From assembly GCF_000732535.1 (NCBI RefSeq), contig NZ_APNK01000023.1, positions 1 through 60,532 on the forward strand: 60,532 nt of DNA. Reading direction: 5' to 3'. A program made the translations under genes and the position numbers. How positions within the stretch are numbered: position 1 is the first letter of the stretch; each line of letters starts with the position of its first letter. Positions 1,203 through 56,390 of this stretch are shown here, in pieces. The DNA is from Salinisphaera hydrothermalis C41B8 (GTDB lineage Bacteria; Pseudomonadota; Gammaproteobacteria; Nevskiales; Salinisphaeraceae). Below the pieces are notes generated by a model. That model searched no databases. It was not told the DNA's origin and saw nothing but the letters and a program-made list of their open reading frames with translations.

Positions 1203-1273
1203 CTAGGGCGTCTCTCGTGACGACACGCCCGAGGGCCTGTTGCCGTTTCGTACGAGTCCGCGCCAAGTGCTGG
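1203..1273. repeat. Degenerate remnant of the CTAGGG palindromic element
   Basis: Begins CTAGGGCGT two bases after the hemerythrin stop. Bases 1237-1272 match 33 of 36 positions of the left arm of the full copy at 48514 (CTGTTG..GTTTCGT.CGAG, then TCCGCGCCAAG). About 25 bases separate the CTAGGG end from this match. Bases 1206-1230 can also fold as GGGCGT/ACGCCC. No matching right end was found. Confidence 0.6.
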
Positions 1274-1383
1274 CGCATGGTCCACGGTGCTCGCTGGGCC
1301 CATGCGCCGCGATCGGGGCCAGCCTCCGTGGGAAGAGAACTCGGGATGCCCCGCGCCGGACGTTCGCGAACCGGAATGGGCTG

Positions 1384-45018: not shown

Positions 45019-45292
45019 CTAGGGCGTGTTGCGGTTTCGTGTGCGCACCGCGTTGGCGTCCGCAAATCGTGTCCGGCAAGGCGCGAGTCGCCGCGTCGTG
45101 GCGTGCCACGACCCAGGCTCGCAACGCCGCCGGGCGCGATTTGCGGCCCAACCCGGAGGGACAAGCGCTGTTTTGTGGCAATCCAGCGTTGTCGCTCCCT
45201 CGCGTAGAACGACTACGCCACGTTCGCTACGCCTCGTCTTGCCGCAAAACTGCGCTTGGCGCGGACGCGCACGAAACCGCAACACGCCCTAG
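45019..45292 (-). repeat. CTAGGG palindromic element, copy R1 (inverted)
   Basis: 274 bp bounded by CTAGGGCGTGTTGCGG... and its mirror ...CCGCAACACGCCCTAG, with 23 perfect terminal pairs. An internal hairpin at 45162-45181/45239-45258 (CAAGCGC.GTTTTG.GGCAA type, two non-matching pairs) and a second one near 45056-45147 (CCGCAAAT...ATTTGCGG). The order of the two hairpins is opposite to R2, so it is in reverse orientation. GCCGC stands directly outside both ends, a possible target duplication. Open on both strands, it mimics an 88-codon gene. Confidence 0.9.
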
Positions 45293-48513: not shown

Positions 48514-48787
48514 CTAGGGTCTGTTGAGGTTTCGTGCGAGTCCGCGCCAAGCGCTGTTTTGCGGCAAGACGAGGCGTAGCGAACGTGGCGTAGTGGGTCT
48601 ACGCGAGAGAGCTATAACGCTGTATTGCCGCAAAACAGCGCTTGTCCCTTCGGGTTGGGCCGCAAATCGCGCCCGGCGGGGTTGCGAGCCGGGGTCGTGG
48701 CACGCCACGACGCGGCGACTCGCGCCTTGCCGGACACGATTTGCGGACGCCAACGCGGCGCTCGCACGAAACCTCAACAGACCCTAG
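48514..48787 (+). repeat. CTAGGG palindromic element, copy R2 (best preserved)
   Basis: 274 bp. Left end 48514-48540 (CTAGGGTCTGTTGAGGTTTC then GTGCGAG) and right end 48761-48787 are perfect 27-bp inverted repeats. Inside: hairpin A, 48548-48567 with 48625-48644 (20 perfect pairs, CAAGCGCTGTTTTGCGGCAA), and hairpin B, 48660-48669 with 48737-48746 (CCGCAAATCG/CGATTTGCGG) whose tip is CGTGGCACGCCACG. No transposase. It ends 32 bases before the DUF2076 start, so it is in that gene's promoter or leader region. Confidence 0.93.
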
Positions 48788-52810: not shown

Positions 52811-53668
52811 ATGCCCCGGAATATTGAAATCCGTCTTCTGCGGACGTTTGTCGCCGCCGTGCATCACGGCAGCATGGCCAAGGCCGCCACCGCACTGCAT
52901 TTAACGCAAGGCGCGGTCAGCCAGCAGATCAAACGGCTGGAAACCGTTCTGGGCCAGCATCTGCTGGAGCGTGGGAGTTATGGTCTGAATCCAACGGTCG
53001 ACGGTGCACGTCTGCTCCGTCACGCCGAGGACATGCTCGATCGAAACGATCGTTTCGTCGCCGAAGCCAGGCCGGGAAAGCTCGACGCGCCGGTGCGGCT
53101 CGGTCTGCCCGGCGATCTGATCGGCCGCTATATGCCGGCCATTCTCTCGTCGGTCGCGACCACCGACCCGGATATGGAGCTTTCGGTGCGTAGTGCCACC
53201 TCTCCGGAGCTCGATACCATGCTCCGGTCGGGCGAACTCGATCTGGCTGTACTCGAAGCACCCGAACGAGCCAGTGGATCCACAGCGCTCATCTCCGATC
53301 GCCTCGTATGGGTCGGCGGCTCGGCATCACCCGTTCATACCCGGCGCCCGCTGCCGTTGTCGTTCGTCAGCGAAGGCTGTGTATTCCGCAGTTCCGTTCT
53401 CGATGCGCTCCGCGGACATCACATCCCGTGGGTCAGCCGGTTCGAAGGCGGCAACCTCGAAGCCACCACGGCCGCAGTCGCTGGCGGCCTGGCGATCACT
53501 GTCAGCCTCGAATCCGTTGTACCGCCCCAGTTACATATTTTGCCGCCCGAATCGGGGCTGCCGGCGCTGCCGCGATTTTCCATCCATCTCTGCCGGAATT
53601 CAGGTTCGCGGTCTGCATCGATCGATCGGGCGTCCGAATTCATATGCCGCGCGATCGAGGCCGCATAG
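52811..53668 (+). CDS. LysR family transcriptional regulator
   Basis: 285 aa from ATG 52811 (MPRNIEIRLLRTFVAAVHHGSMAKAATALHLTQGAVSQQIKRLE). Effector domain with VRLGLPGDLIGRYMPAILSSVATTDPDMELSV; the C terminus is short, ending RAIEAA. It is divergent from the LysE exporter, which it should regulate. Its stop codon TAG (53666-53668) is the TAG of the CTAGGG-type end of repeat remnant R4, so the 3' end of the gene seems to have been cut or completed by the element. Confidence 0.9.
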   Translation: MPRNIEIRLLRTFVAAVHHGSMAKAATALHLTQGAVSQQIKRLETVLGQHLLERGSYGLNPTVDGARLLRHAEDMLDRNDRFVAEARPGKLDAPVRLGLPGDLIGRYMPAILSSVATTDPDMELSVRSATSPELDTMLRSGELDLAVLEAPERASGSTALISDRLVWVGGSASPVHTRRPLPLSFVSEGCVFRSSVLDALRGHHIPWVSRFEGGNLEATTAAVAGGLAITVSLESVVPPQLHILPPESGLPALPRFSIHLCRNSGSRSASIDRASEFICRAIEAA

Positions 53669-53757
53669 GGCGTGTTGAGGTTTCATGGGAGCGCCGCGTT
53701 GGCGTCCGCAAATCGTGACCGGCGAGACGTGAGTCTGGGTCGTTGCGAGCCACGGCT
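53665..53757. repeat. Truncated CTAGGG element, copy R4
   Basis: Starts ATAGGGCGTGTTGAGGTTTC, as in R3, then CCGCGTTGGCGTCCGCAAATCGTGACCGGC as in R1 orientation. It loses the hairpin B tip and diverges after about 53757; a weak CTAGGC at 53866 might be the other end. Its first bases supply the lysR stop codon. Confidence 0.7.
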
Positions 53758-56089: not shown

Positions 56090-56390
56090 CTAGGGCGTGT
56101 TGAGGTTTCGTGCGAGTCCGCGCCAAGCGCTGTTTTGCGGCAAGACGAGGCGTAGCGAACGGGGCGTAGTCGTTACGCGAGAGAGCTACAACGCTGGATT
56201 GCCGTCGTGTCGTCAATTTATATGGGCGCTTGTCCCTTCGGGTTGGGCCGCCCATAAAAAATTAACCATGGGCGCCCGGCGGCGTTGCGAGTCTGGGTCG
56301 TGGCACGCCACGACGCGGCGACTCGCGCCTTGCCGGACACGATTTGCGCACGCCAACGCGGCGCTCGGACGAAACCTCAACACGCCCTGG
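56090..56390 (+). repeat. CTAGGG palindromic element, copy R3 with AT-rich replacement
   Basis: 301 bp, ends CTAGGGCGTGTTGAGGTTTC and ...CAACACGCCCTGG (two mismatches between the ends). It is in R2 orientation, with hairpin A left arm intact (CAAGCGCTGTTTTGCGGCAA), but the right arm of A and left arm of B are replaced by AT-rich sequence. The replacement makes a new stem, TATGGGCG (56221-56228) with CGCCCATA (56249-56256). The element is in the gap between the epimerase and the GGDEF gene. Confidence 0.88.

Follow-up and report, generated by a model that had tools for sequence, protein, structure and literature searches.

Bacterial MITEs are usually regarded as transient derivatives that arise from a single insertion sequence by deletion, and REP and REPIN repeats are short GTAG-type hairpins with a Y1-type transposase. 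Among the insertion sequences, members of the IS630 family have TA or CTAG as their target, and those of the IS427-like subgroup of IS5 duplicate TA and have ends that start with G. A MITE of Pseudomonas syringae, MITEPsy1, is described as a 100-nt element attributed to the IS5-type ISPsy2 and mobile in the laboratory (PMC3189936).

Here we describe R2, a palindromic unit found in the window, by which we mean the whole stretch of DNA that was analysed (60,532 nucleotides), one contig of the 4.28-Mb draft genome of Salinisphaera hydrothermalis C41B8 (G000). Comparison of sequences establishes that the element is present in many copies, was inserted, lacks genes, has the tips of insertion sequences and contains a folded core homologous across the class. 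It is short, has terminal inverted repeats and the ends of a resident autonomous element, and is accompanied by a TA duplication and by empty sites in relatives. The most suitable reading of R2 is that of a MITE mobilised in trans, a movement that we infer. In fuller terms, it is probably a non-autonomous IS5-type DNA transposon, moved in trans, with a folded core that serves its own spread.

Architecture of R2 and its copies in the genome

The features of R2, followed by the further copies in the window, are given below with strand and supporting evidence.

48514-48787, plus strand: R2, complete 274-bp unit including the CTAG target (covariance model, 286.4 bits over positions 1-269 of 269)
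48514-48517, no strand: left CTAG, the target, with the TA of the duplication at 48515-48516 (pattern across copies)
48517-48540, plus strand: left terminal arm, its outer 17-19 bp common to IS5-family insertion sequences of the genome
48548-48644, plus strand: hairpin 1, with 20-bp perfect arms (48548-48567 / 48625-48644) and an inner stem (fold; compensatory changes in 12/20 pairs, 103 copies)
48646-48654, plus strand: CCC-NNN-GGG mini-hairpin between the large hairpins, more conserved than any other spot in the family (in 79/83 copies)
48655-48759, plus strand: hairpin 2, with the inner motif of hairpin 1 (AAGGC ... AACGC) on the opposite strand (fold, alignment, motif counts)
48761-48784, minus strand: right terminal arm, complementary to the left arm throughout
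48784-48787, no strand: right CTAG, with the second TA of the duplication at 48785-48786
45019-45292, minus strand: R1, complete, 274 bp, inverted (repeat search; covariance model, 274.2 bits)
56090-56388, plus strand: R3, complete, a longer form whose hairpin arms hold alternative modules (covariance model, 194.5 bits)
53667-53735, minus strand: partial copy, one tip and the adjoining part of the core (repeats D4, I4 and I5; core block at 53694)
1223-1382, plus strand: weak remnant of a copy, left end (repeat D3; 10.6 bits, E 0.19, alone not significant)

The initial annotation had given R2 perfect 27-bp ends. The pairing of 48514-48540 with 48761-48787 is indeed free of mismatches, but not all 27 bp belong to the element: the outermost C-TA and TA-G constitute the CTAG target with its TA duplication, and the element proper extends from about 48517 to 48784, with a terminal arm of its own of about 24 bp. 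Both internal hairpins were found again, the 20-bp arms of the first being fully complementary and positions 48660-48669 (ccgcaaatcg) of the second pairing with 48737-48746 (cgatttgcgg). Likewise, R1 does equal R2 in length and is 92% complementary to it, and R2 is without a transposase as supposed, no transposase frame being present inside the 274 bp with its paired arms. Folded as single-stranded DNA, R2 reaches -117.1 kcal/mol against a shuffle mean of -62.3 (z -15.3; 0/200 shuffles as good), and as RNA its two strands give z values of -14.4 and -15.5 against shuffles.

The possibility that the genome would hold no further copies had been raised at the outset; about 100 dispersed copies were found. 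The element's ends gave 116+116 matches on the two strands (at most two mismatches) vs 0+3 for the control, and core blocks were matched 70 times on the left and 88 times on the right, with either at 96 places and both at 60. Clusters with an end or a core block numbered 110, at least three of which are insertion-sequence ends (C8, C9 and C13). The two-ended units recovered were 82, including a few false pairs, and 76-78 were used after removal; the set of 78 omits three non-matching units and one longer than 330 bp. For the tip and module test two further units were removed, and for the private-change test three, the latter also setting aside three mixed-tip copies.

Longer forms of 285 and 297 bp, with unpaired or mismatched arms, are also numerous in the genome. 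At three arm positions a short form alternates with a longer form containing a AAAATTAAC-like stretch (e.g. R3 of the window, L075 and L082). These alternative sequences in three arms, referred to as modules, are found in several other species of the genus as well. Seven contigs of G000 (C29, C39, C41, C43, C46, C66 and C68) start within or near a copy, as expected because repeats break assembly. With several contigs here ending within a copy, the covariance model described below could help in annotating this repeat, which interrupts draft assemblies.

Insertion sites and resident insertion sequences

Of the 78 copies, 52 have TA at both flanks and 20 at a single flank, which leaves 6 with none. 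At the left, CTA is found in 53/78, the usual context being CTAG, and GGG ends together with TA are seen in the copies; CTAG is scarce in the window (26 vs 76 expected). Judged by its flanks, the element inserts in TA, mostly within CTAG, and duplicates the TA.

Occupied and empty orthologous sites were compared, as had been proposed, using six junctions with the element left out and 14 genomes of the genus, among them that of the window. Uninterrupted insertion sites were present in relatives for three of the six junctions: the L107 site is continuous in five relatives (G005, G006, G011, G014 and G016), the L096 site in two (G010 and G012) and the L080 site in two (G007 and G015). These alignments are diverged at the junction itself, with no insert present. 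The remaining three junctions gave no continuous match among the genus genomes compared, and for the window's own copies the empty-site search returned no syntenic region spanning R1-R3 among the matches listed from 10 relatives. The L107 site is also occupied in G012, where the copy is L260.

The gene pairs flanking 76 copies are convergent in 14 cases, tandem in 18 and divergent in 6, the other 38 being not assignable. A role as 5' leader, prompted by the position of R1-R3 just upstream of genes, was set aside, as the copies have no such bias. By single sides, 62 of 152 flanking genes are directed towards the copies and 46 away from them (44 not assignable). Furthermore, at 22/156 copy ends in G000 a coding frame crosses into the junction and stops at the TAG that the target supplies (e.g. 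the left end of L007 and the right end of L090), so that insertion there preserves a stop codon. Gene orientation and stop codons of this kind would suit a fixed host repeat, whether a bidirectional terminator or a REP-like palindrome, that is kept for the use of the host. However, the bias of the flanking genes can come from the CTAG target, and the empty sites in relatives, the TA duplication and the insertion-sequence tips indicate mobility, which makes a fixed host repeat very improbable.

A single CTAG at a gene end is occupied in two species, by L007:1503-1772 in G000 and by L268 in G012, and the tips of the two copies differ, at both ends. The pair reflects either two independent insertions or a paired tip change in place. 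As proof of an in-place change it was rejected, because CTAG is scarce, the right flanks are unlike and two independent insertions are possible.

A search for a relative with the same ends and a transposase, also suggested at the outset, led to resident IS5-family insertion sequences. DDE_Tnp_1 matches, indicative of an IS4/IS5-type transposase, occur at seven places in the genome. Three of these loci (C8, C9 and C57), each of about 860 bp, are bordered on both sides by the element's tips with TA, the two ends of the C9 insertion sequence being slightly unlike; at C13 a single end carries the tip, the tips of C6 are of another kind and two places are without tips. The C8 transposase is intact (269 aa) and is assigned to the IS5 family by NF033580, with 257.7 bits against a cut-off of 110. 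Because the outer 17-19 bp of the element are those of the resident ~860-bp IS5-family insertion sequences, it is their transposase that most likely moves the element in trans. On contig C6 a broken IS5-family element with other ends (L161, G000:C6:8650-9800) is located between two palindrome copies.

The IS630 family was ruled out as mobiliser, DDE_3 (PF13358) having 0 matches in G000. On an Azotobacter chroococcum plasmid (NZ_CP066311.1), a copy without its left tip (L350) is situated just before a gene annotated as an IS630 family transposase.

Insertion sequences with such tips also occur in G009, G011 and G013 of the same genus. Their tips in G013 equal those of the sampled element copies, and in G009 and G011 the insertion-sequence variant is absent from the element copies sampled there. 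The class-wide check covered 30 transposase loci in 27 element-bearing genomes and allowed at most two mismatches. The element's tips were found at both ends in only 1/27 genomes (G138, three loci); two other genomes had the tip once and the remaining genomes none. A link between the element and IS5 transposases throughout the class is likely because of the form of the ends and the target, and is seen in few genomes. As regards the genome of the window, the initial description of R2 as a non-autonomous mobile palindrome agrees with its ~100 copies, TA on both sides in 52/78, the 3/6 empty sites and the resident insertion sequences with the same ends.

Spread and conservation of the folded core

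The element is present in 14/14 genomes of the genus and 16/17 of the family; of the three family genomes from other genera, two match weakly or partly. The named carriers are Salinisphaera records, Salinisphaera being a member of the Gammaproteobacteria, and a MAG labelled Lysobacterales. By BLAST, R2 has 72.4% identity to an Azotobacter plasmid over 53% of the unit (E 6e-9), and the Azotobacter copy in turn matches plasmids of Pseudomonas (81.0%) and Halomonas (72.9%) over its full length. A covariance model built from a 16-sequence alignment matched 96/369 genomes of the class, in 76/271 genera, at E <= 1e-5, the E-values being rough and at most five candidates being scored per genome; every match among those listed spans model positions 1-269. 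In parallel, a sequence-only profile of the same 16 found 66/67 further copies and 0/67 reversed controls in which the palindromes were kept. At the level of sequence, these data demonstrate that the body of the element is not species-specific and that its core is homologous across the class. With the core in about a quarter of the sampled related genomes, they point to an old, widespread family of hitchhiking elements, apparently undescribed.

Carriage by phage was rejected, since R2 and the Azotobacter copy gave no phage match and an exact pattern search of viral contigs was also empty. A known structured RNA family was likewise rejected: no Rfam family reaches its gathering score in the window, the best sub-threshold match having 25.0 bits vs 90, and nothing came near threshold in three relatives.

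Two large hairpins, oriented oppositely and separated by a small CCC-GGG hairpin, make up the core between the tips. In the 16-sequence alignment, 51 of the 92 consensus pairs have changed on both sides. A broad set of 83 copies from 63 genomes or records was assembled from 43 of 93 model matches (counting each place on one strand and omitting R1, R3, one duplicate and partial matches) and 40 further copies picked from the matches listed in the class scan. In this set 79/92 pairs have changed on both sides, 72/92 of them in at least three copies, with 36-49 in slid controls, and 79.9% of cells are Watson-Crick vs 26-35% when slid. Within the family (103 copies of 15 genomes), two-sided changes were observed in 13/18 pairs of the tip, 12/20 of hairpin 1 and 5/16 and 12/26 of hairpin 2.

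The conserved letters are located in the inner loops and in the CCC-GGG hairpin. The motif CCCNNNGGG is present in 79/83 copies, AAGGM in 62/83 on the plus strand of hairpin 1 and in 73/83 on the minus strand of hairpin 2, and AACGC in 51 and 62 of 83 (hairpin 1 and hairpin 2, respectively), with 3-4% in shuffled controls; these counts arise partly by construction, because the covariance model chose the copies. Since the same motifs appear on opposite strands, the two hairpins mirror each other, and the covariance model finds most copies on both strands.

The paired changes in tips and stems, far above chance, are what would also be seen in an ordinary MITE that folds only as a by-product, with template switching during replication copying one arm onto the other and the core left unused; the published account of such switching credits it with the ability both to generate perfect stems and to maintain them (PMC8794818). 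The shared insertion L107/L260 (229/270 identical) bears on this in both directions. Two of its changed pairs kept pairing via a two-sided change, as a by-product would, but 20/25 are one-sided. A by-product also leaves unexplained the constant length of the element and the fixed class-wide inner motifs (CCCNNNGGG 79/83; AAGGM 62 and 73/83), albeit in copies chosen by the model, and the mismatched-arm forms of 285 and 297 bp persist. On balance we find an unused core unlikely.

Because L107/L260, the one clear shared old insertion, mostly loses its pairing, we suggest that the element uses its folded core in spreading. With this one shared insertion as the basis, pairing behaves as if kept by the moving lineage and not at the site. 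The relation of copy age to pairing had opposite signs among four genomes.

The balance of G-U and A-C pairs was even in the 103 Salinisphaera-family copies (tip 18:24, hairpin 1 19:21, hairpin 2 18:14) and uneven in the broad set (hairpin 1 85:33, its tip 49:5, hairpin 2 19:38, all 347:248). Neither DNA nor RNA is thus favoured throughout, and the unevenness in the broad set is unlike the prediction of a pure DNA reading. A core that acts as RNA would be read through from neighbouring genes, and its transcript would be cut, bound or used as a small RNA to the benefit of element or host, as is described for transcripts of other bacterial MITEs (PMC10969869, PMC2229807). The strong fold on both strands, the fixed loop motifs and the excess of G-U over A-C in hairpin 1 of the broad set (85:33) and in its tip (49:5) are consistent with this. 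However, the family copies have no such excess, hairpin 2 leans the opposite way in the broad set (19:38), the motif layout is mirror-like and alike on both strands, no Rfam family reaches threshold and the copies have no preference for sites upstream of genes, with 14 convergent, 18 tandem and 6 divergent gene pairs. We therefore doubt that RNA is the acting form. For a core serving the spread of a transposon, the likeliest acting form would be a DNA hairpin or cruciform, or a single-strand hairpin during replication or transposition, with RNA close behind. The alternative first offered for R2, a cruciform or structured RNA, stands in so far as the fold is conserved with compensatory changes; as between cruciform and RNA, the evidence speaks neither for nor against.

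Matched tips, mixed bodies and comparison with described elements

The four variable tip positions are alike at both ends in 67/76 copies, vs 26.5 expected for independent draws. The association from tip to tip, across 250 bp, has a V of 0.92, that between the tip and module A, 30 bp apart, 0.21, and that between the tip and modules B and C 0.03-0.10, values that rest on 61/76 copies with module states taken from simple string tests. Moreover, private changes present at both ends number 15 vs 0.14 expected (72 copies). Matched pairs of tips may mean that the transposase needs two like ends, or that one arm templates the other. Any one of three processes can yield the tip and body pattern: gene conversion acting on the bodies, copying from one arm to the other, or selection in favour of like ends.

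Gene conversion among dispersed copies would shuffle the bodies and leave the tips fixed at each site, any exchange of tips being only apparent. It accords with tips that match each other and not the modules, with the three copies that have mixed major tips and with the partial linkage of modules A-B and B-C (V 0.47), but leaves unexplained the many tips found on one core across genera, where 83 class-wide copies have 57 distinct 16-nt tips. Gene conversion is a possibility that we rate as somewhat doubtful, and it competes with tip exchange within the genome, not with the identity of the element.

For that tip exchange we tentatively propose, at a little under an even chance, that the R2-type elements are a class-wide mobile lineage which has its own folded core, did not arise by deletion from any single insertion sequence and adopts, always as a matched pair, the tips that the resident IS5-type transposase recognises, the mirrored hairpins being needed for the switch or for transposition. 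A single folded core of ~267 bp is found again across a large part of a bacterial class, joined to a wide variety of tips. Should movement depend on the core, a non-autonomous element would have a function beyond its ends, and the change of host transposase by such a satellite could be tested in a genus with two tip types and several body forms.

R2 had initially been left as a type that could not be named. As an IS5-family-like MITE it can be placed; the class-wide structured core matches no described family searched, and no description of the two-hairpin core was found in the open-licence literature searched.

Of the described systems, the Correia or NEMIS repeats of Neisseria resemble the element in having more than 100 copies per genome, TA ends, an internal module that some forms have and others lack, and a stable fold, whereas, compared by description, they are ~107 and 155 bp long and belong to one genus (PMC2229807, PMC10969869). 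ERIC, YPAL and CIR are intergenic palindromes with a conserved fold, CIR having two arms and a linker, but in the account cited they are shorter and have other ends, again a comparison by description (PMC2229807). The MITEs of Porphyromonas gingivalis, such as BrickBuilt, have ends identical or nearly identical to those of resident IS5-family elements; BrickBuilt differs in its minisatellite core, its 19 copies and its restriction to one small bacterial group, as given in that source (PMC4596501). MITEPsy1 is likewise non-autonomous, is attributed to an IS5-type element and inserts at CTAG or YTAA; by its description, it differs in its length of 100 nt, its tips and its 4-nt duplication, and the passages cited mention no conserved two-hairpin core (PMC3189936). 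The resident IS5-family insertion sequences themselves (L162, L158 and L159) have the outer 17-19 bp and the TA flanks in common with the element and differ from it in carrying a transposase gene and lacking the two-hairpin core.
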